Shown here piece by piece: positions 764-13,642 of a stretch of DNA of 64,000 nucleotides. The DNA is from Methanobrevibacter millerae (GTDB lineage Archaea > Methanobacteriota > Methanobacteria > Methanobacteriales > Methanobacteriaceae), in the NCBI RefSeq assembly GCF_001477655.1, contig NZ_CP011266.1, positions 607,001 to 671,000 of the forward strand, in the 5' to 3' direction. The notes under the pieces are model-generated. The model did not search any database and was not told the origin of the DNA. It saw only the letters and a list, made by a program, of their open reading frames with translations. The translations under genes were made by a program, and so were the position numbers. The stretch's first letter is position 1, and each line of letters begins with the position of its first letter.

Positions 764-2752
764 ATGAAAAAGTTTTTGAATGTTGCATTAAAATCCCAAT
801 GGAAAACAATATTATTTATTGCAGTGTTATCAATTATTCAAACAATATTTCAAGTGGAAATAATTGATCTGTTCAGCCATGCTTTGACTGGAGTTAAAAA
901 TCAGAATAGTGATTTGCTTTTCAAATCAGGATTATATATGATAATATTCACAGTCCTTTCAATGATTTCTATGTATGCAGTTTATAGTCTCTCGGTAAGG
1001 GTATCTTCAAATGCAACATTTAATATCCGTGAAAAAATCTTTCATATTTTAATGAACTTGCCTGATGAAGAACTTGGCAAATTTAAAAATACATCGCTAA
1101 TTACCTGGTCAACAAGATCGATGTACATAGAACAGGGATTTATAGTGATGATACTCGAACAGTTAATGCTGATTCCATTTACTTTCATAGCAATTCTATA
1201 TGAAATAGCATTGATTGATGGTACTTTTGCACTTTTCTTCTTAGCATTTCTTAGCATTCTTACCGGAATCGTATTTTGGAAAATGAAACAACTTGTAGAA
1301 ATATTCTTTAAAATTAAAAAGACATATGGAAAACTAAACCTATTATTCCTATCCAAAATAACTAATATAGCCAACAATATTCCATTTAAAAAACAGAAGG
1401 CGGAAGCCGAATTTGAAAAGGCATGTGAGAATTCCTACGATATAAGCATCAAGTATATCTTAAGTCAGTATTACATCGGACCACTGTTATTATGGGGTTT
1501 ATATATTCTTGTTTTGATTACATTGGCACTGGTTAATTCCGGATATTCCATTGGCTTTGAAACTGACCGTATAATTGATTCATTGATAATTCTGATTTAT
1601 GTTGCATACTTCATTTCTACCCTGACGGTTATTCCGGCATTGATTGGTATATGGCCAAGTGCATATTCCAATTCAGTGATTTTAGAGGACATCTTTGATC
1701 TTGAAGATAAAATCATAAAATCTAAAAACACAAATGATAATCTGAAAAGAATAGAAATTGTTGAGGAAGACATTGTCCAAGAGGATAAAGACATATGGGT
1801 GGAAAGAAAAAACATCTTCCATAAATTCACTAGAATATTAAAAGAGGATAAAACCAAAGTAATAATATCAATGGTATTACTTATGGCATCTACATTGTGC
1901 ATGGTTTATGCTCCTAAAGTTGCAGGAAAGACGGTTGATTTATTGATTTCTAATTCGAATGCATCCAACGATATTGCAATCTACACTAATATTGCCTTGC
2001 TAATTGTTTTATATTCTGTAGGCTTTCTGTTTCAATTACCTCCGAAGAAAACAATGGGGATTATTGGTGAAAAAGTATCCTATAATTTAAGAATGGAACT
2101 GTTTGATAAGATTGATGTTATAGGTTCCGAATTCATTCAAGAAAATTCAAAAGGCCATATTCTATCTAGACTAAACAATGATTTAATGGTCATCAAGGGG
2201 TTCGTCTCTTCTCGCCTTTCCGAAATCTATGCGCAAATTCTGTTAATAGCTTTTGTATTTGTGTTGATTTTAATGACGGACTGGAGATTCGGTTTGATAT
2301 ATCTGGTGATATTGCCGATTCATGCAATTTGCTTATACATATGTCATGTTAAATCTAAAACCAATTTTAATGGTCATCAAAAGCATTTGGGGCGAATGAT
2401 GGGCTATTTTGAAAGGGGGCTCGCAAATCGTGATTCATTCCATGAAATAGGGTTTGAAAAAATCAATCAAACTGTAACTAGCTATTATGTCAAATCCAGA
2501 AACATTACTAAGGTTATGGGGCCTATTACAACATTTTTAATAAATCTGAGTAATATAACTGTTTATATTGCAGGTATTTACTTTTTAATAGCTAATGAAA
2601 TACACCTGGGAACCCTATTGGCGATTATTATGTATGGGCAATTATTAACAAATCCTATTAAAAAATTAAGTACTTCGATGGATTCTATTGAAACCGCATT
2701 CTCCAGTATCAAAAGGATATTTGCGATTATTGACTATCAAAAAGAAAAATAA
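764..2752 (+). CDS. tandem ABC-exporter transmembrane protein lacking both ATPase domains
   Basis: This 662-residue integral membrane protein consists of two ABC-type-1 exporter membrane domains fused head to tail (about 1-320 and 350-662). No Walker A, signature or Walker B motif is present anywhere. The first half resembles the membrane domain of the gene at 4632-6242 (compare WKTILFIAVLSIIQTIFQVEI with WKILTLIVIFMFIYTYCQIEI). The second half resembles that of 3038-4642 (shared core LSRLNND or MSRLNND, preceded by YAPKVAGK or YAPKLVGK). The join (about 310-350) keeps a charged linker like the one that precedes the ATPase in the paralogue, as if the nucleotide-binding domain had been cut out cleanly. 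It may need a separate ATPase, act as a regulatory subunit, or work without ATP. Its substrate is unknown. Confidence 0.75.
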   Translation: MKKFLNVALKSQWKTILFIAVLSIIQTIFQVEIIDLFSHALTGVKNQNSDLLFKSGLYMIIFTVLSMISMYAVYSLSVRVSSNATFNIREKIFHILMNLPDEELGKFKNTSLITWSTRSMYIEQGFIVMILEQLMLIPFTFIAILYEIALIDGTFALFFLAFLSILTGIVFWKMKQLVEIFFKIKKTYGKLNLLFLSKITNIANNIPFKKQKAEAEFEKACENSYDISIKYILSQYYIGPLLLWGLYILVLITLALVNSGYSIGFETDRIIDSLIILIYVAYFISTLTVIPALIGIWPSAYSNSVILEDIFDLEDKIIKSKNTNDNLKRIEIVEEDIVQEDKDIWVERKNIFHKFTRILKEDKTKVIISMVLLMASTLCMVYAPKVAGKTVDLLISNSNASNDIAIYTNIALLIVLYSVGFLFQLPPKKTMGIIGEKVSYNLRMELFDKIDVIGSEFIQENSKGHILSRLNNDLMVIKGFVSSRLSEIYAQILLIAFVFVLILMTDWRFGLIYLVILPIHAICLYICHVKSKTNFNGHQKHLGRMMGYFERGLANRDSFHEIGFEKINQTVTSYYVKSRNITKVMGPITTFLINLSNITVYIAGIYFLIANEIHLGTLLAIIMYGQLLTNPIKKLSTSMDSIETAFSSIKRIFAIIDYQKEK

Positions 2753-3037: not shown

Positions 3038-4642
3038 CTAATTTAATGATAATGTCTTCATATTTAACATATCTCCCACATCATCATCCGGAGCCAATAC
3101 AATGGCGGTCCTACTCTCAATAATTTTTATAAGCAAATCAACTCCTAAATTATTATTGTAGTCAATAATCAGCAGTTCAGGATCATGTATCAGTGCTCTT
3201 GCGATACATATCAGTTTTCTTTCATGGGTGCTTATATTATTTGAGTCATAAGATATTTTGGTCTCATACTTGTCAGGGAATTTTTCAATTAGGCTATGCA
3301 ATCCAATCAATTCGCAGACTCCTATTACTTCTTCAGGGTCAAATTCATCTCCGCAAATAATATTTTCCTTAACAGTTCCATCAAACACGTAATTTTCCTC
3401 TGTTGAAACTCCAATAAGATTTTTGTTTGAATTTATATCATATTGACTTAAATCAAAATCATTCACTCTGACGCTTCCGTTTTCAGCTTCAAGAAGGCCT
3501 AAAAATATCTTAATTAAATTGTTCCTGTTGTCTCCTGTAAGAGAGACATGTTCGCCGGGCATGATTTTTAGATTGAAATCTTTTATCTCACAATATGAAA
3601 TGTTTTCAAATTTGATTTCATTAATGCCGTCAACTTCCGGAAACTCTTTTTTTCTCTTTTCAGGCATATCCAAAATTTCATATATTCTATCCAAACATGC
3701 ATATGAAGTTCTTATACTATTCAATGTATTTCCAATTGATATTATTGGTTTTTTCATTAGTTGATAGTATAAGACAAAGGTTGTGAATGTTCCCATATCT
3801 ATGCTTCCGGTATATACCAAATATCCTCCATAAACATATAGAATCACCTGCAGAGTAATTGTTATAAATGAGTTGACCGGATACATTATCTCAGTATAAA
3901 ACCGGGACTTTTTATAACTGTCCTTTTGTTTGACATTATATTCTCTGAACCTTTTTCGGGAATATTCTTCACTGTTGAATGATTCAATCATCTTACGATT
4001 TTTCAGGAAATCTCCAATGAAACCCATTATATTGCCCAAATCATTTTGATGGATTTTATAGTAGTTTCTTGTTTTTTTGTGGAATGGATATATCACAAGA
4101 GGATAAACTATAACCAGCGCAAAAAGTATTCCCGATAATTTGAAATCAATATCACTGCTCATCCAAAGGACAAATATTATTATTGTAATATCACTGAGGA
4201 AAAGAATTATCGTGTTACTTATAAATGCCTTGAGGTTGGGAACATCATTGTTGAGTCTAGACATTATGTAGCCGTCGAATTCTGACTTATCAATGTTAAT
4301 ATAGCTTAATTTTGCATATAGCTGATTTCTCAATTTCTGAACTACACTTTCACTTGTTTTAGCCATTATTCTATTGGTAGGTATTCTAATCAGATAGCTT
4401 GCGGCAAACAGTATCACTATAAGTATAATGTCATTGTATAAAGTTTTTGATGGAGCATCGCTTAAATCTAACGCATACCTCATTAGTGAATTTATCAATT
4501 TTCCGACAAGTTTTGGAGCATAAACTGATAAAACAACAGATATTACCATCATAATGATGGCTGCCAGTATTTGATATTTATAATCCTTAAGAAGATTAAT
4601 CAGTTTGGAGGTCAGCTGCCTTGTGGAATACTTATAAACCAT
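3038..4642 (-). CDS. ABC exporter subunit with a degenerate ATPase domain
   Basis: This has the half-transporter layout: a six-helix membrane domain (about 15-315) and then a nucleotide-binding domain (about 340-534). It is second in a two-gene operon and overlaps the end of the upstream partner. ATG 4642 is chosen because GGTGAG lies just upstream; an ATG at 4657 has no such site. The ATPase motifs are ruined. The Walker A position reads TGDNRNNLIK, with no GK[ST]. The signature position reads NISTHERKLICIAR. Walker B is LLIIDY, with no catalytic Glu. The switch-histidine position reads LAPDDD. The fold is intact over its full length, so this is a drifted pseudo-ATPase and not a broken gene. 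It probably pairs with 4632-6242. Confidence 0.75.
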   Translation of the reverse strand: MVYKYSTRQLTSKLINLLKDYKYQILAAIIMMVISVVLSVYAPKLVGKLINSLMRYALDLSDAPSKTLYNDIILIVILFAASYLIRIPTNRIMAKTSESVVQKLRNQLYAKLSYINIDKSEFDGYIMSRLNNDVPNLKAFISNTIILFLSDITIIIFVLWMSSDIDFKLSGILFALVIVYPLVIYPFHKKTRNYYKIHQNDLGNIMGFIGDFLKNRKMIESFNSEEYSRKRFREYNVKQKDSYKKSRFYTEIMYPVNSFITITLQVILYVYGGYLVYTGSIDMGTFTTFVLYYQLMKKPIISIGNTLNSIRTSYACLDRIYEILDMPEKRKKEFPEVDGINEIKFENISYCEIKDFNLKIMPGEHVSLTGDNRNNLIKIFLGLLEAENGSVRVNDFDLSQYDINSNKNLIGVSTEENYVFDGTVKENIICGDEFDPEEVIGVCELIGLHSLIEKFPDKYETKISYDSNNISTHERKLICIARALIHDPELLIIDYNNNLGVDLLIKIIESRTAIVLAPDDDVGDMLNMKTLSLN

Positions 4643-6242
4643 TAATCTCACCGCCATTTAATTCTATGACATTATCAATTTGAGGATAGCTTTTAGTGTC
4701 ATTATCGATGAATATTACCGTTTTGTTATCAAGTAGGTTTAGGATATTTTTGATTATGATTTTCTTATCATCAGAATTGATGGAGGAAAATGAATTGTCA
4801 AAAACATAGATTTTTCTTTTATGGGCTATGCTTCTTGCAATGGACAGTTTCTGCTTTAGGTCACTATTCAAATTTTCTCCGTTTTCATAAACCTCAAAAT
4901 CCAAATCCCTGTCAAAAAGTGAAATCCTGCAGGCTTCAGCCGCATCATCTAGATTTATGCGATCATCACCCAGCCGAATATTTTCCAACACGCTGTCCTT
5001 TAAGAAGTTGGAGTTGTCCGGAGCATAGGAAATCAATCTTCTTAAGCTTTTGGGAGATACGACTTTATTGTCTACTAGGACTTCTCCTTCAAATTCCCGG
5101 TAAAATCCCATAAGGAAATTCATCAGACTGCTTTTACCACTGCCAGCATCACCAGTAATCAATGTATGCGAACCCTTTTTAATTTCAAGAGACATGTTTG
5201 AAAGAATATGTCTTTCACCGTAAACAAGTGTTATATCATTTAATCTGATTTCTTTAAAATCATTTATTTTTTCAATTTCATTGTTTTCACTTTTTTCTAA
5301 AATTAAAACATCTTCAATACGGGTTGCACCAGTGCATGTCATATGAAAAGTGTTTGTAAATGAAATCAATCCATTCAAGCTTCTTATAAAGTAGCTTATA
5401 ATCAATAGAATTAAAATTATATCTATGATTTTCAGGGAGTCCAGGCTGAAGTTGGTGATGAAATAGGATATAATAAGAATTAATATAGTGTTCATCACGG
5501 TTATAAACACAAGGAAAATGTTCAGTTTGTACTGAAAACGGTAGCCTTTATGGTATGACTCATCTGTAACGCTTTTAAATCCGTTTTCACCCAATTTTTC
5601 TTTATTGTATTGCTTAAATAAATTTATAACCATGATTTTATCACGGAATCTCCTGTTGATTTTACCTAGAATTTTCTTGACGGGGTAATAACTGATTGCT
5701 AAACTCCGTAGTTTATAAATAAAAATGTTTAAAAAAATCAGTGCGAATAATGCGAAAATTAACGACACCATTGGATCTATATCATACAAACCAATAATTA
5801 TGCTGATTGTCAAAAGCAAAACGAACAATACTTTCTTAATGAATGTCATCAGTGCAGCTTGGAATGATGCAATTCCCCTTACTGTCCTTGTCATCAAACC
5901 GGAAAAAGCGATTTTGTCAAATTCATCCATGGAATCCATACTTGCATATATGTCAAAGAGCTTTTCACGGATGTCATAGCCGAAATCGGATGTGAATCTC
6001 ACTGAAAGATATGAAACTATTCCTGAAGATATAACCAGCAGTATTAATGTAATAAATGTGGTCAACAATCTCATTTCAAGTAGACTTTGGAGTTCTATCG
6101 TATATTCCTTAATAACCAACATCAATATAGGCAAGTCGCTGATAATTTCAATTTGACAGTAGGTATAAATGAACATAAAGATTACAATCAATGTCAGTAT
6201 TTTCCAATATTCTCTAAGCATATATTTGATTAAGATTTTCAT
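4632..6242 (-). CDS. ABC exporter subunit, Walker A kept but catalytic residues lost
   Basis: This is the first gene of the exporter pair, with a membrane domain (about 1-310) followed by an ATPase domain (about 330-536). Walker A is canonical (GDAGSGKSS, about 364-372), so ATP binding is plausible. The Q-loop Gln is replaced by Asp (SYAPDNS), the signature is NLNSDLKQKLSIARS and not LSGGQ, Walker B is YVFDN with Asn for the catalytic Glu, and the switch histidine is missing (FIDNDTK). I chose ATG 6242 because AGGA lies upstream and the N-terminus then aligns with the paralogue at 764; ATG 6287 would add 15 residues. Pairing with 3038-4642 would give two non-canonical ATP sites. The substrate is unknown. 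Confidence 0.75.
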   Translation of the reverse strand: MKILIKYMLREYWKILTLIVIFMFIYTYCQIEIISDLPILMLVIKEYTIELQSLLEMRLLTTFITLILLVISSGIVSYLSVRFTSDFGYDIREKLFDIYASMDSMDEFDKIAFSGLMTRTVRGIASFQAALMTFIKKVLFVLLLTISIIIGLYDIDPMVSLIFALFALIFLNIFIYKLRSLAISYYPVKKILGKINRRFRDKIMVINLFKQYNKEKLGENGFKSVTDESYHKGYRFQYKLNIFLVFITVMNTILILIISYFITNFSLDSLKIIDIILILLIISYFIRSLNGLISFTNTFHMTCTGATRIEDVLILEKSENNEIEKINDFKEIRLNDITLVYGERHILSNMSLEIKKGSHTLITGDAGSGKSSLMNFLMGFYREFEGEVLVDNKVVSPKSLRRLISYAPDNSNFLKDSVLENIRLGDDRINLDDAAEACRISLFDRDLDFEVYENGENLNSDLKQKLSIARSIAHKRKIYVFDNSFSSINSDDKKIIIKNILNLLDNKTVIFIDNDTKSYPQIDNVIELNGGEINGL

Positions 6243-6588
6243 TTCAATATTTCCTGCAGGGTAAGTATAATAAATTTTCTCATCCATTACTGAATATATT
6301 AATTTATAATTTTATTTTATATAGATTTTTTTAATTAAAATCCAATCAAAAAATCGGATTATTAGATGAACTAGTTATTATAATTAAATTGAAATTTTAA
6401 CTAAATTTTCATGTCGTAATATTAAAACTTTATGGATTGTAGTGGTTTTGGTGTGATTCTATGCAAAAAAGGTGTTTTGATAGAAATTTATCAGATTCAA
6501 AAATGGGTGGATTGAAAAAATAGAGTTAACATATGGATAGTCCTTTTGTTAGTAATCTTTTTATTAAATATAAACTATAATTAATATT
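6243..6588. other. 346-base divergent intergenic region
   Basis: The region is AT-rich upstream sequence shared by the ABC exporter operon (leftward) and the PAP2 gene (rightward). A TATA-like element, TTAAATATAAAC, lies about 20-25 bases before the PAP2 ATG, consistent with a leaderless message. Two tiny overlapping reading frames (6432-6515 and 6461-6523) occur, the second with a GGTGTGAT site before it, but neither resembles anything I know. No RNA gene is visible. Confidence 0.4.
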
Positions 6589-7482
6589 ATGTTTGAAACA
6601 GTTTTCTATTTTCAATGGGAAGTTTGGCTGATACTATTCATGCAAAGTTCCTTTCCAGATTGGGTATTCGGATTCTTTAAACTTGTAGCAAATGTCGTTT
6701 CTAAAAATGTTCTTGCCTTTTTATTCATTTCAATCTATTTGGCATATAACAAGGAATGGGGAAAATTCACATTGCTTTCATTGGGTGTGGCCGGTGTGTG
6801 CTGTGAATTTGTCAAGGTGACTGTTGCACGTTTAAGACCATATGCTGCAGTCGATAAAATAAAGTGTATCTATCCCAATGAACCAGGCCAGGATCCTTTA
6901 AACTTTAAAATCCAGGGATATTCCTTTCCAAGCGGGCATTCTATGATGGCAACCAATTTGTTTTTGGCCATTCCAATATACGTCAGGAATATTCAATATA
7001 TCGCTATTGGATTGGTTGGTGTTTTGATTGTTGCACTTTCAAGGGTTGGATTAGGTGTTCATTTTCCGACTGATACTATTGCGGGTTTCATCATTGCTTT
7101 GGTGATAATTTTAATATTATCCTGTGTTTTCGACAAGATTGAAAATAGGAAATATATCTATTTGGGTATTGTCGTACTGTCTTTGGTGGGAATCGTATTC
7201 TGTCCAGCAATAAGTTATATTAAATATGTGGCTTTGGCTTGTGGAATTTCATTGGGTTTTCTTGTTGAGGAAAAATACGTTAACTTCGAAAACCCTAAAA
7301 GCAGGAGGGATGCGATAGTCAGGTTTGCAGGAGCAATTATATTGTTTGCATTGCTTTTTGTCTTAATCCCGAAACTTGCAGGAAACACTGACTTGGTTAA
7401 ATGTATCGAGTATTCTCTATTTACATTTATAATGCTTGCAATATATCCTTTAGCATTTAAAAAGATTGATAGGGATGGATAA
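6589..7482 (+). CDS. PAP2-family membrane phosphatase
   Basis: The three PAP2 signature motifs are all present: K76 with R83-P84 (KVTVARLRP), PSGH at 114-117, and SR at 151-152 with H158 and D162 (SRVGLGVHFPTD). The two histidines act as nucleophile and acid/base in this superfamily. The remainder is hydrophobic with several membrane helices, and the C-terminal 110 residues add further helices. Likely substrates are lipid phosphates or isoprenoid diphosphates at the membrane; in archaea, dephosphorylation of a polyprenyl carrier or archaeal lipid intermediate is possible. Nothing in the neighbourhood narrows the substrate. The start lies about 20 bases after a TATA-like element, so the message may be leaderless. 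Confidence 0.85.
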   Translation: MFETVFYFQWEVWLILFMQSSFPDWVFGFFKLVANVVSKNVLAFLFISIYLAYNKEWGKFTLLSLGVAGVCCEFVKVTVARLRPYAAVDKIKCIYPNEPGQDPLNFKIQGYSFPSGHSMMATNLFLAIPIYVRNIQYIAIGLVGVLIVALSRVGLGVHFPTDTIAGFIIALVIILILSCVFDKIENRKYIYLGIVVLSLVGIVFCPAISYIKYVALACGISLGFLVEEKYVNFENPKSRRDAIVRFAGAIILFALLFVLIPKLAGNTDLVKCIEYSLFTFIMLAIYPLAFKKIDRDG

Positions 7483-7537
7483 TCAACTCCCTTTAATCAA
7501 TTTTACTTTTTTTGGTTTTTGCATTTTAAAAAACATA

Positions 7538-9807
7538 TTATTCGTTGGCTTTTAGTGATTCAACCATATCCAATTTCTTGATTTTACCTGAAAACATTAA
7601 ATTTACAAGTATTGACAATGAAAATGTTATTGCAGCAGATATTATGATATTTGTATTAGTTAATGAAGGTATTATATAAAATGAAGTTCCTGAAGACGTC
7701 CACATGAGGTTTGGGATATACATGCCTAAAGGTACACCTAATAGGAATCCTATGGCTGTAAATATCAGGTTTTGTGTTAACAATAATCTTCTTAATGCGC
7801 TGCTTTTAAATCCCAGAACTTTAAGTGTCGCAATTTCTCTTTCAATTTCTGTAAATGACATCAATCCTAAATTATACAAAACAATAATTGCTAAAACACA
7901 AGCGAAGAATGATAATATGTATATGAATAACCACATGTTCTGGCTTATTCCGTCCCAATCTTTTTCAATATCCTCATGTGTATTGGTTGTTTTAATGATA
8001 TCATATGTTTTATTTACATGATCTGAGGTTATGATGCTAGTTGGTGTGTAATTCAAACCCAACTCTTCCAATTTATAGGGGGACATGATTAAACCCTGTG
8101 ATATTGGATCTGCATGGATTCTATCAATTTTTGTATTGACCCATTTGTCTGATTCCATGATATGCCAATTAACGGTATCGCCAATGCCTACATTTAATGT
8201 ATCAGACATTTTTTGTGAAATTGAAACTTCATCATTTCCGATTTCTATATGATTTTTATCCTTATCAGTTGGCGTTATTAAATCCGTGTCATTTAAAACT
8301 AGAATCGATCCCGATTTTTTTGCATTGCCAGATTCGAGTTCAATTCTTTCATCCATTATTTTATCTCCATTAACATCGCTGGCCACTTTATCAATTTGTG
8401 ATATTGATGCGTTGTCATCGATTATTAATTTTGATTCATAATGATTTATTTGACTATATTCCCATTCTTTTACATCATTTAACCCATCATATAATCCAAA
8501 TGCACCAATTAAAAGTGCACTACAACCCATAACTCCGATAATAGTCATGATACTTCTCAATTTATTTCATTTAGCATCCCTGTAATTCCATCGGACATTA
8601 AAGGATAATCTTTTCCAAATCCTTAATCTTTCAACAAATCCTGAAGTTGATACTTTAGGTACTTTTGGTTTAATTGCCTCTGAAGGTTTTTCATTAGAAA
8701 TGCTTGAAACGGCATAATTTGAAACAGCTAGTGAAAATATGGTTATTAAAGCTATTAAAAATATAAAACTCATATTCCATGAAGGACTCCACACTGGTAG
8801 TTGATATACCGCAATCATTGATGGATAAAATAGTTTTGGTATTATCATTGGCCCTAAAATCAAACCTAAAATGGATCCCGATAAAACTAAGCAGAATCCA
8901 TATGATATGTAATGGAATGTTATCGTGCTGTTTTTAAATCCATTGGCTTTTAATATGCCTATTTGTGTTCTTTGATGTGTAATTATCCTTGTCATTGTTG
9001 TCAAAAGTATTAACAGTGCAACTATGATGAATACAATTGGAAAAATATCTGCCATCATTTTGTGTTTTGCAATTTTGTCTGAAAACTGATAAACGCTTGG
9101 ATGGTCGGATTGTTTAACAAATGTGCTATAGTATCCATTTAAACGATAATCTAACAATTTATAATATGTGTCTGGTGAACCCTCAAATTTAACGTTTAAA
9201 ACATTTTATGGGATGTTATCATCAGGGAATGCTTTATTGGACATGTACGCAAAGCCGATTTTGTTATAATCAGGCATTACTGAATAAGATGATGAATGAT
9301 AAACATATTCTGGTGAATATCCTAATCCTTTAATTTCCTTATCAATTGTATATCCTTCACTTTCAAAGCTGATGCGGTCTCCAACTTTTAATCCTTTGAC
9401 ATCGGCAAAGTTTTTATCAAGCCATACTCCATCACGGTCATTAATGTCTAATTCTTTGCCTTCCAATAAATAAAATTTTGATATTGTGTTGTTTTCAATT
9501 AAATGCAGTGTAATTTCGGGGTCATTTTCAAAGTTCGCTATCGAATCAACAACCAATTGCCTTTCCATTTGTGTAGTTGCACCTAAATGATTAACTTGTT
9601 CCAAAAACAATCATTCAGGTATGGTGAATAAATCCAGCCATCAGCCAAATTGGTTTCTTCATAATAGTCGTTTATGTTATCTTCAAGACCGATGTATTCG
9701 CCGCTTATGCCTGTAAAAACAAAAACTCCTAAAAATGCCATTAAAAAGATGGATAGGAATTGGGTTTTGTGTTTGAATATGTCTCTTATCATTTTTTTTC
9801 CGAGCAT
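7538..9807 (-). pseudogene. FtsX/MacB-type ABC permease, broken by one frameshift and two stops
   Basis: The pieces read in order as one permease of about 750 residues: an N-terminal membrane helix plus extracellular part (from ATG 9807, preceded by GGTGGG), an FtsX core of several helices (LLTTMTRIITHQRTQIGILK), a second extracellular region, and a C-terminal FtsX core (FTEIEREIATLKVLGFK). The lesions are a one-base loss in a short homopolymer near 9603-9607, an in-frame TAA at 9206-9208 and an in-frame TGA at 8567-8569. After each stop the same frame continues with family-like sequence. Such permeases work with a LolD/MacB-type ATPase, and none is adjacent. Three independent lesions argue for decay and against a sequencing slip. 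Confidence 0.85.
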
Positions 9808-10033
9808 CTTCCCACCATTATGATTCATTAGTATTTTTTGGATTTTAATTAAAATGGTTGAAGATTTCAAAAATGTGTATATCTCAATTTTATCCAACAT
9901 TATTAATGCTGATGCATCTTCCTACTTGAGTGATATCTTAAATTAGTTTTTTTTGAATTTAAATAAAAATTAAGGTTTGATTGCACGAATATCTGTATTA
10001 ATGAAATATTATGGGTTTGTCAGATATTTCTTT

Positions 10034-11692
10034 TTAATCCGGGTTATACATGATAAATTGTACTACAAGATACATTCCCAATGCAAAACTTATTACATAT
10101 CCGAATAATCCTAATAGTGGTATATCTATAAAGGCAGGACCCTTGTCTGCAAACAATGCCAGTGAAGATCCAACAATCAATGCCGCAATGATGATTGCTG
10201 TTGTCAGTTGTTTTGATATTTCATTTATTCCTTCTAATTTTAATTTTAAGGTGATTTCGCCACCTTCTAATTTTGACAATGTGCTATTTACTGTTGTAGG
10301 CAGTCCTTTTGTCAAATGTCCAAGTTCTAAAAGATGGTTATATCCTACTTTTACCAATCTGCTTGGTGATAATTTATGGGTAACTATTTTTTTAGATAAT
10401 CTTTTCAGTTCTTTTGCGGTATCAAATTCTGGATTTAATTTTTTACCGCTTTCTTCTACTAATGCCAGCCCCCTTCCAATCATTACAAATTCTCTTGGCA
10501 TTGATATATTATGTTTTATCATTGTATTAAGCAAGTCTTCTATGCTTCCATTAATATTTTTCAACTTATTTCCATAATATTTTTTCATTAAATCATCAAT
10601 ATCCTCTTTAAGCTCAGGAGTATTCTGAGTGGGTGCAATTATATCCATGTATATTAATTGATTGATGATGTTATCCGCATTACCGTTTACTAAAAGCATA
10701 ATCAATTCTGCAAGGTTTTCTTTAAATCCTTCGCTCAATATTCCCATCATTCCCATATCTATATAACAGATTGTATTATTGTCCTTGATAATTATATTTG
10801 CAGGATGGGGGTCTGCATGGAAGAATCCATCAATCATGATCTGTTTGAAAAATGAATTTGTTCCTCTTTTGGCAATTAATTTTTTATCGTATTTTCCACT
10901 TTCATCTTCGATTACTTTACTTAAATCATCTCCTTCAATCAATTCCATGTTGATGACCTTTCCGGAACAGTAATCGTTATAAACTTCTGGAATATAAACG
11001 TAAGGGATGCTTTTAAAATTTGATTGCATAATTTCTATATTTCTAACTTCTTCAAGATAATTTATTTCTTTCAATATAGACTTTTCAAATTCGCTAACGA
11101 TTGCAGGCAAATTGTAAATTTTTGTTTTATTGATATATTTGTCAATTCTTAAAGCCAAAAATTTCATTATCCTAAGGTCTGTTTTAATAATCTCATCACT
11201 ATTTGGCTTTTGAACTTTAACTGCAACTTTTTTTTCGTTATTTTTTAAAGTAGCCGTATATACCTGTGCAATGGATGCAGAACCTATTGGTACTTCATCA
11301 AAATCAGTATAAATATTTTCTAAATCCTGTCCCAATTCAGATTCAATGACTTTCCTGATTTCTTCAAAATCGGTTACTGGTGTATTGTCTCTTAATTTCT
11401 GAAGTTCTTCAGATATTTCAATACCCACTAAATCAGGTCTTGTAGATAGCATCTGACCTAATTTGATGTATGCCGGACCTAAATCCTCAAACACCCTCCT
11501 TATTCTTACAGGAACAGTATTATCAACGAATGGCATTTCTTCATTTATTTTACGGTTTCTTAGAAAAGGAAATGTTTTAAAAAAAGTATTTTCTTCAATC
11601 AAGTATCCGAAATCGTTCTTTTTTAAAACTTTATAAATTTGATTTATTCGCTGAATATCAGAATTGGTCGATTTATTAATAATTTTCATCAT
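10034..11692 (-). CDS. ABC1/UbiB-family atypical kinase
   Basis: Family hallmarks are in order: the KxGQ motif (K77 to Q80, KLGQMLSTRPDLVG), the alanine-type loop GSASIAQV (137-144) in place of a glycine-rich loop, the lysine of VAVKVQKP (K159), HADPHPANI (292-300), and DMG (312-314), the equivalent of the kinase DFG. Two C-terminal hydrophobic helices (about 490-550) should anchor it in the membrane, as in bacterial UbiB. Characterised relatives support quinone or isoprenoid-lipid metabolism. This organism would not be expected to make ubiquinone, so the client is probably another isoprenoid or lipid process. It lies just downstream of the MutS-like gene, with no strong operon evidence. Confidence 0.85.
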   Translation of the reverse strand: MMKIINKSTNSDIQRINQIYKVLKKNDFGYLIEENTFFKTFPFLRNRKINEEMPFVDNTVPVRIRRVFEDLGPAYIKLGQMLSTRPDLVGIEISEELQKLRDNTPVTDFEEIRKVIESELGQDLENIYTDFDEVPIGSASIAQVYTATLKNNEKKVAVKVQKPNSDEIIKTDLRIMKFLALRIDKYINKTKIYNLPAIVSEFEKSILKEINYLEEVRNIEIMQSNFKSIPYVYIPEVYNDYCSGKVINMELIEGDDLSKVIEDESGKYDKKLIAKRGTNSFFKQIMIDGFFHADPHPANIIIKDNNTICYIDMGMMGILSEGFKENLAELIMLLVNGNADNIINQLIYMDIIAPTQNTPELKEDIDDLMKKYYGNKLKNINGSIEDLLNTMIKHNISMPREFVMIGRGLALVEESGKKLNPEFDTAKELKRLSKKIVTHKLSPSRLVKVGYNHLLELGHLTKGLPTTVNSTLSKLEGGEITLKLKLEGINEISKQLTTAIIIAALIVGSSLALFADKGPAFIDIPLLGLFGYVISFALGMYLVVQFIMYNPD

Positions 11693-11716
11693 GATAATTT
11701 TTGCATGAACTAGTAT

Positions 11717-13642
11717 TTAGAATTTTTCTAAAATTCTTGCATACACCACTTTTAGCTCATCATCAGATTTTTCATAAATTCTTTTTAAAATCAATTCAGG
11801 TGTACTTTTTGCAAGGAAATTCATTTTTGGTGTTCTGTCAACGATTAGATTATAGTTTTCATCCAAACCTTTTGCTTCTATTCCATCAACTCTAACATCA
11901 GTATAATTCATCAGTTCCCTTGCCATATGGGTTACTATTATTCCATATGAGTGTGATTCCTTAATCATGTCTATGAATGTTGATATGATTTTAACTGCAG
12001 CTTCAAGCTCGGTTATGCCTTCAAGCTCGTCAAGCAATACCAGTTTTTCGCTGTTGGTTGTTACAATTGGAATGAACACGTTCAGGAATGATTCGAATGC
12101 TCCAGCATCAAGTGACCGTTTTTTGGAAAAGTGATAAATCTCATCAAACAGCTTGATTTCACAATATTTTGCACTTACTGGAAGTCCCATCTGTGCCATT
12201 ATTGAAATCTGCGTCAATGTTTCAAGAAGTGTTGTTTTACCTCCGCTGTTTGCTCCGGTCAGTAATGCGATATTTTCATTTTTTGTCAGTTCATAGTCAA
12301 TCTTTTGGATGTTTTCATCATCCTTTTTAAGGGATAAGTCTAAATGGAGTGCTCCTTTTAATTTTATTCCATCACCAAATTCTGGTTCTGTTAATTCATA
12401 TTCGTAGGCAAAACTTCCCAGGCTGAATTCATAGTCGAATTTTATTGCATCCTGGACTTCTTCAATTGCCTTTTGCTTTATTGAATTGAGCTGTATTGCA
12501 GCACTTTTCTTAATGTCGAAAATGTCATTTTCCTTTTTGGATGAGCGTTCCAGTTTCACCCTTTCAATTTCCTGTTCGTCTATTTCAATAGGATACTTTC
12601 GGAGGTACGGATCAAAGTCCATCCCAGTTTTTTCCTTGATTATTGCCTTCCGTTTATTTATAATTTCGTCAAATATTTTACTTATCTTTGGAGGAAAATT
12701 ATTGTTTAATAGGTTGAGAATTTCATCTCCTTCAAGGTCAACATTTTTCATTGACTTTTCAAGTTCCTCATCCATCTCATATTTCAGTGAGTTGACAAGT
12801 TCGTCAATATCAACTTCTTTTTTGTCGACTATGTTCAATTCGTCTATAATTGGAATTATGTCGCCTAAAACGCTTTCCTTATTTCTTATTTTTTGGATTT
12901 CATGAACTCTTTGGAAGGTATCCTGGTTTTGGATAAAAAAGTTAATTATTTTTTCAGGAACGATTTCATAGTCATTTTCATCAATGTTAATCATTACAAG
13001 ATTTGGCATTCCTTCAAAATCAAGAATTCCCTGTGAATAAACATAAAATATTAAATCATAATTCATCAATTCTTCCTGGAGCAGTGGAGAATCGCTTGCA
13101 GTAAGGATTGGGTAGTATTGGTTCAGGCCTAAATCACATAAATATGAATTGTCCTCTTCGCTTTCAACTAAAATTACTTTGCTCGCATCATATTCTGCTT
13201 TTGCGTCTTCAAGCTCTTTTAAGTTTTTCATCAGGCCTCTCAATTTGATGATGGGCATTTGGGATACTTCTTTTTTGGCATCCATTACAAACTTAACCTG
13301 CTTTTTAATCTTATTCAGGTCTTTTGAAGGTGACAACAATAATATTCTGTTTTTGGAGTATGAAGTATTGGAATAGGCTAATATCTTGTTAATTATGTCT
13401 TCATATATTTCCAGTGCCCTGTCGCTTTTCATGAATTCATAATTGTCATTATTCAATAATTGATTCATAATTTGAATAGCTTTTCTTTGGCTGATGCCGT
13501 CAATATTAATGATTCTTTCCACATCAACATCATCAATTATTTTTTGGAGTTCTTCTTCCCCTCCAACGCTTTTTATTATTTTTTCAGAGATCTTATCTCC
13601 GATACCTTTTATTTCTTGCAATGTATGTAAGTCTCCTTCCAT
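11717..13642 (-). CDS. MutS-family ATPase with N-terminal helix-hairpin-helix domain
   Basis: The N-terminus holds a double helix-hairpin-helix segment (about 8-65, with IKGIGDK and NIDGISQRKA), a non-specific DNA-binding module. The middle is a long helical lever/clamp-like region. The C-terminal MutS ATPase has Walker A GANSGGKTT (about 463-471), Walker B LVLLDELEG (about 534-542) and the switch THMA. The mismatch-recognition Phe-x-Glu domain and the C-terminal Smr nuclease of MutS2 are absent. It is an archaeal MutS-related protein, probably acting on branched or recombining DNA. Mismatch repair here is more likely carried out by NucS (34675-35457). ATG 13642 is preferred over TTG 13651 because AAGGG lies upstream. 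Confidence 0.8.
   Translation of the reverse strand: MEGDLHTLQEIKGIGDKISEKIIKSVGGEEELQKIIDDVDVERIINIDGISQRKAIQIMNQLLNNDNYEFMKSDRALEIYEDIINKILAYSNTSYSKNRILLLSPSKDLNKIKKQVKFVMDAKKEVSQMPIIKLRGLMKNLKELEDAKAEYDASKVILVESEEDNSYLCDLGLNQYYPILTASDSPLLQEELMNYDLIFYVYSQGILDFEGMPNLVMINIDENDYEIVPEKIINFFIQNQDTFQRVHEIQKIRNKESVLGDIIPIIDELNIVDKKEVDIDELVNSLKYEMDEELEKSMKNVDLEGDEILNLLNNNFPPKISKIFDEIINKRKAIIKEKTGMDFDPYLRKYPIEIDEQEIERVKLERSSKKENDIFDIKKSAAIQLNSIKQKAIEEVQDAIKFDYEFSLGSFAYEYELTEPEFGDGIKLKGALHLDLSLKKDDENIQKIDYELTKNENIALLTGANSGGKTTLLETLTQISIMAQMGLPVSAKYCEIKLFDEIYHFSKKRSLDAGAFESFLNVFIPIVTTNSEKLVLLDELEGITELEAAVKIISTFIDMIKESHSYGIIVTHMARELMNYTDVRVDGIEAKGLDENYNLIVDRTPKMNFLAKSTPELILKRIYEKSDDELKVVYARILEKF

Follow-up and report, generated by a model that had tools for sequence, protein, structure and literature searches.

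How a primary pump can lose its motor yet remain useful is an open question; SbmA shows that bacteria have done so. SbmA is a proton-driven protein derived from an ABC exporter, and it has neither nucleotide-binding domains (NBDs) nor coupling helices (PMC13316013). The proteins most closely related to it are full ABC transporters, and the intermediate steps between the two are unclear. For LmrA, ethidium-proton symport by the isolated membrane domain has been reported (PMC6155054). In TM287/288, the degenerate site binds nucleotide tightly and does not hydrolyse it (PMC5216877; reviewed in PMC7756269), and the residual turnover of a consensus-site E-to-Q mutant (0.022 per min) was not ascribed to that site (PMC5216877).

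Here we describe a locus in a 64,000-nucleotide stretch of DNA (the window, to which all positions refer) of a complete archaeal genome of 2,543,538 bases, whose close named relatives are rumen and gut Methanobrevibacter. It encodes two adjacent half-transporters, one A-type and one B-type (subunits A and B, together AB), and a fusion protein, T. The window pair has no complete composite catalytic site (P-loop, Q-loop, Glu and His with the partner's LSGGQ). Most likely, AB and T are ATP-hydrolysis-independent transporters that resemble SbmA but have a separate origin. One group of gut methanogens retains candidate intermediates, so the order of steps, with hydrolysis lost before the domain, is readable and testable. 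The open-licence papers searched included none on doubly dead exporters or on these Methanobrevibacter genes. Each part is of a known kind; for a conserved pair with two dead sites and a natural ATPase-free fusion as its sister, the same literature gave no earlier description.

The half-transporter pair and its ATPase motifs

Both reading frames are present and open in an ORF check of the window, and they overlap by 26 nt. The start of A (Table 1) was chosen because its orthologues start at a Met whose codon lies at 6242; an alternative upstream ATG at 6287 is probably not used. Pfam detects ABC_tran in A (65.7 bits) and in B (46.4 bits; cut-off 25 for both), while ABC_membrane scores 110 bits in B, above the cut-off, and 20.4 bits (E 0.0005) in A, under it. 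When compared with solved exporters, however, the A family profile aligns over most of the length of A. The best solved relative of B, by sequence and by fold, is TM288; the predicted structure of B has a mean pLDDT of 58, mostly below 55 in the ATPase domain, and was for that reason used for this fold match alone.

Table 1. Positions in the window of the three genes and of the motif regions discussed in the text
Feature	Position	Strand	Basis
T, A-type and B-type membrane domains in one fused protein, neither ATPase domain present, gene convergent with B	764..2752	+	Pfam, alignment, tree
T, second-half TM4-TM5 cytoplasmic loop, 8 residues shorter than in intact exporters	2426..2467	+	alignment
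Subunit B, half-transporter of exporter type, ATPase domain without any catalytic motif, C-terminally truncated	3038..4657	-	ORF, Pfam, alignment
B, switch region IVLAPDDD, His lost	3080..3103	-	alignment
B, Walker B/D-loop remnant LLIIDYNNNLGV, catalytic Glu lost, 8-residue deletion	3140..3175	-	alignment
B, signature remnant NISTHERK	3215..3238	-	alignment
B, Walker A remnant GDNRNN (aligned G---DNRNN), 3-residue deletion, no Lys	3518..3535	-	alignment
Subunit A, half-transporter of exporter type, degenerate ATPase domain, P-loop kept	4632..6242	-	ORF, Pfam, orthologue alignment
A, switch region IFIDNDTK, Asp-Asn here versus Gln in intact relatives	4692..4715	-	alignment
A, Walker B VFDNSFSS, Asp retained and followed by Asn (by Asp in intact relatives)	4782..4805	-	alignment
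A, signature region LNSDLKQ, LSGGQ lost	4851..4871	-	alignment
A, Q-loop region APDNSNFL, Gln lost	5001..5024	-	alignment
A, Walker A GDAGSGKSS, kept, Lys in every aligned dead pair	5127..5153	-	alignment

An earlier, sequence-only reading of the locus had proposed that both ATPase domains are catalytically degenerate, and motif alignment of A and B confirmed this. It had A keeping only Walker A; the Q-loop Gln, LSGGQ, the catalytic Glu and the switch His are indeed absent from A, but the Walker B Asp is kept as well. Subunit B, described as lacking Walker A and all the other motifs, has lost the P-loop, the Q-loop Gln (the region reads TEENYVF), the catalytic Glu, a D-loop segment and the His, its Walker B region now reading LLIIDYNN, with the 8-residue deletion in the D-loop region. 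The absence of Glu and His from A is inherited, since the A subunits of intact relatives already have Asp and Gln at these positions; the loss of LSGGQ and of the Q-loop Gln in A is new relative to the same relatives.

Loss of motifs predicts, and does not prove, an absence of turnover. It is nevertheless decidedly improbable, in our judgement, that AB is still driven by ATP, whether through non-canonical hydrolysis at the site of A or through a separate ATPase acting in trans. Subunit A does retain the Walker A Lys and the Walker B Asp, and the coupling loops are largely kept, but none of the catalytic Glu, switch His, Q-loop Gln and LSGGQ is present, the residual turnover of the TM287/288 mutant was not ascribed to its degenerate site (PMC5216877), and the genome holds no exporter-type orphan ATPase gene, its stand-alone ATPases matching weakly at 23-34% identity.

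Conservation of the losses among relatives

A survey of A/B pairs across the family yielded 58 pairs, of which 9 have the window pattern (the window included), 7 form a second dead group and 42 are others. In intact pairs, according to the motif table of all 58, B carries LDEATS and the switch His and A carries FDD, Gln and SGGQ. In all 16 dead pairs B is without the catalytic Glu and the switch His and A is without LSGGQ, while the Walker A Lys of A is present in 16 of 16. The losses of the window pair recur in 8 homologous pairs from 6 other genomes of two genera, with 82-85% identity in three genomes (G022, G044, G041) and 37-41% in G063 (two pairs), G019 and G089 (two pairs; another genus). 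A further window-type pair, in G050, is split across frames. The named matches to the pair are Methanobrevibacter metagenome genomes. The second dead group comes from another genus (G128, G132, two in G133, G140, G141 and G142; loci L113, L114, L115, L116, L117 and L136) and keeps both P-loops; its A subunits have FDN and a signature of the LSTSIKN type, its B subunits have IIDN or IIEN, and the switch position holds Asp, so that Asn and Asp stand in for the catalytic Glu and the switch His.

The full set of losses is seen in none of the 42 pairs that belong to neither dead group. They have the ordinary one-site arrangement with a few single deviations, the nearest to full loss being the pair at L141 in G002, with SDSQ in A and LDDATS in B and with the His and both P-loops kept; G007 (L142) has SSSQ in A, and the pair at L128 in G127 is cut short. 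The G002 and G007 pairs make up a third, separate exporter lineage with early signs of degeneration, in which the P-loops and the His are kept. The intact pairs closest to the dead clade (L071, L072, L073, L074) adjoin GH3-like, ATP-grasp (RimK-like) and STAS-like genes; this neighbourhood is possibly a biosynthetic cluster whose product the ancestral exporter may have carried. When the losses were mapped in orthologues, the pattern proved common to every clade member, and the search for orthologues with intact motifs found none, the intact pairs falling outside the clade. The label 'ABC transporter ATP-binding protein' is probably functionally wrong for the whole conserved clade.

The dead ATPase domains are under purifying selection. 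In the window clade dN/dS is 0.18-0.25 for the ATPase domain of A and 0.23-0.34 for that of B, similar to or below the values for the membrane domains, and in the second group the ATPase domains give 0.10-0.24; in most pairs of both groups the dead ATPase domains do not exceed their own membrane domains. Constraint on the dead pairs is relaxed but clear, as intact exporters have dN/dS values (mostly 0.03-0.08) of about a third of theirs, although part of this gap may come from saturation of dS in the intact comparisons. Decay in a single strain is ruled out by the conserved orthologues together with dN/dS. A wider form of the same idea, that these genes are on their way to becoming pseudogenes, could draw on the frameshifts or stops in some T copies and in the pairs of G057 and G050, on the weaker constraint than in intact exporters and on a broken FtsX-type permease gene nearby in the same genome. 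We consider it most improbable, given that frames have stayed open over approximately 60% residue divergence and two genera, that dN/dS lies well below 1 and that shared deletions have been inherited by all members.

The ATPase-free fusion and its place in the clade

The sequence-only reading had also noted an ATPase-free paralogue on the opposite strand, and T fits that description: Pfam finds two stretches of ABC_membrane (114 bits) and no ABC_tran match. Its halves are joined by a short linker in the place of the first ATPase domain, and the protein ends where the second would begin. Of the 67 genomes of the genus, 34 carry T, in some cases as a partial or broken copy, and so do three genomes from two further genera. 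Identity is mostly 58-84%, and dN/dS is 0.21-0.37. Its shortened second-half loop corresponds to what we take, by homology to exporter structures, to be the region of coupling helix 2. The 8-residue loss is found in all aligned T proteins except the early-branching T of G008; the other coupling loops are kept, being of nearly full length in A and in the N-terminal membrane domain of T. Acidic residues in or near TM segments that are specific to T (D35 and E123) are only suggestive of a conserved proton-coupling glutamate ladder like that of SbmA. Membership of T in the SbmA/BacA family was rejected, with no such Pfam match at E 0.001, as was an orphan ATPase serving T, none of exporter type being found in the genome of the window. 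A single-sequence structure prediction for T had a mean pLDDT of 41, and the model was not used.

In G022, T adjoins AB in the same convergent order and is frameshifted. The two are not obligate partners, since G044 and G041 have AB without T. Genes near T are often TetR-like, MFS or large adhesin-like (named by eye from sequence), and in five genomes (L085-L088, L090) a very long adhesin-like gene of about 2600-2900 aa directly follows T. The T proteins at L096 (G101, about 5500-12000) and L083 (G080) are identical in the aligned protein and have the same neighbours in two genera, and the L096 segment is flanked by two copies of a five-gene block (clusters 58-62); this points to a recent horizontal transfer, perhaps on a mobile element. 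AB lies in housekeeping contexts that differ between groups, and across the AB and T loci compared no conserved partner gene was found as a clue to substrate. On the minus strand of the window (7538-9900), the FtsX-type permease gene has come apart into four ORFs, of 340, 196, 134 and 105 aa; intact copies of approximately 760 aa are present elsewhere in the same genome and in relatives.

A tree of concatenated membrane domains was built from the dead groups, the G057 pair, all T proteins and the 38 other pairs used. A single branch separates both dead groups, G057 and all T from every one of the 38 (SH-aLRT 99), and a reduced set returned the same clade (SH-aLRT 100); this support covers the joint grouping, not the order in which the two dead groups and T split off. 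Placing either dead group or T with its nearest intact pairs was rejected (AU p 0.0002-0.0009). G057 and T are sister lineages (support 100/99; p 0.004 for the alternatives); the A of G057 is frameshifted just before the P-loop, with GPYSSGKT in another frame (L069, 5900-6700), either through decay or through an assembly error. Both dead groups and G057 also share a B subunit cut short at the C-terminus (537-556 aa versus mostly 585-632), which is an argument for the clade independent of the tree. Because the grouping joins long branches, a single origin of the dead pairs, G057 and T is likely rather than proven. The suggestion that this lineage has been moving away from ATP hydrolysis is well supported, by losses conserved across species and genera, by selection and by one clade that includes T. 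As for the further suggestion of a sensing or passive role, the sequences do not distinguish a sensor from a facilitator or an ion-driven transporter.

It is possible but unlikely that AB, and perhaps T, is instead an ATP/ADP sensor or regulator that reports nucleotide level or a ligand by way of a retained non-hydrolytic ATP site and transports nothing, like the SUR subunits of KATP channels. A full P-loop and the Walker B Asp in A of all dead pairs, P-loops in both subunits of the second group, and window-clade ATPase domains conserved at least as strongly as the membrane domains would suit such a role. No partner channel or signalling gene is conserved beside the pair across loci, however, and in the window subclade the B signature that faces the P-loop of A is without its Gly. 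T has no ATP site, and ATP sensing is therefore not common to the whole clade.

A proposed route away from ATP hydrolysis and its known parallels

The ancestor would have been an ordinary TM287/288-type exporter, with the hydrolytic P-loop, Glu and His in B and LSGGQ in A, and with a site of A's own that only bound ATP. Since it is intact B that holds Glu and His and the site of A is the non-hydrolysing one, the ancestral hydrolytic site has lost all of its elements in the window pair, while every dead A retains the P-loop that belonged to the non-hydrolysing site. From this combination, the ATPase domains probably now serve as a clamp or a ligand-gated brace, and those of AB may bind ATP without turnover. 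We infer that A and B form a heterodimer that does not hydrolyse ATP, with ATP still bound by A; for exporters without any catalytic site, ATP, if used at all, would be a non-hydrolysed ligand. Any transport by AB would, speculatively, be downhill or coupled to an ion gradient. Along the sister branch, complete removal of the ATPase domains and fusion of the two membrane domains would have given T, an outcome that SbmA/BacA came to independently. The graded stages would then be P-loops only (the second group), one P-loop (the window pair), decaying domains (G057) and excision with fusion (T). To our minds the chances are even that AB is an exporter-fold heterodimer without ATP hydrolysis and T the end point without ATPase domains. 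That an ABC exporter heterodimer turned into ATP-independent transporters once, in archaea, leaving living graded stages and independently of SbmA, is put forward tentatively, at slightly less than an even chance. The nearly full-length coupling loops in A and in the N-terminal half of T might count against the first of these two readings, being unexpected if the ATPase domains are mechanically idle.

SUR1/SUR2 and CFTR, as AB would, use the ABC exporter scaffold for a non-pumping role, but they each retain one complete catalytic site and AB has none. TM287/288 shares with AB the fold, the two adjacent half-transporters and the ancestral asymmetry; in AB the consensus site is destroyed too, and B is C-terminally truncated. 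The membrane domain of LmrA resembles T in consisting of exporter membrane domains without ATPase domains, with ion-coupled transport reported for it (PMC6155054), but it was engineered by truncation in the laboratory, whereas T occurs naturally and has been conserved. Lastly, SbmA/BacA (SLiPT) likewise has an exporter membrane domain without ATPase domains, and the partial loss of one coupling loop in T may be a further likeness. T differs in being a fused heterodimer, where SbmA consists of two protomers with an additional TM0 domain, in keeping most of its coupling loops, and in deriving from archaeal A/B exporter pairs.
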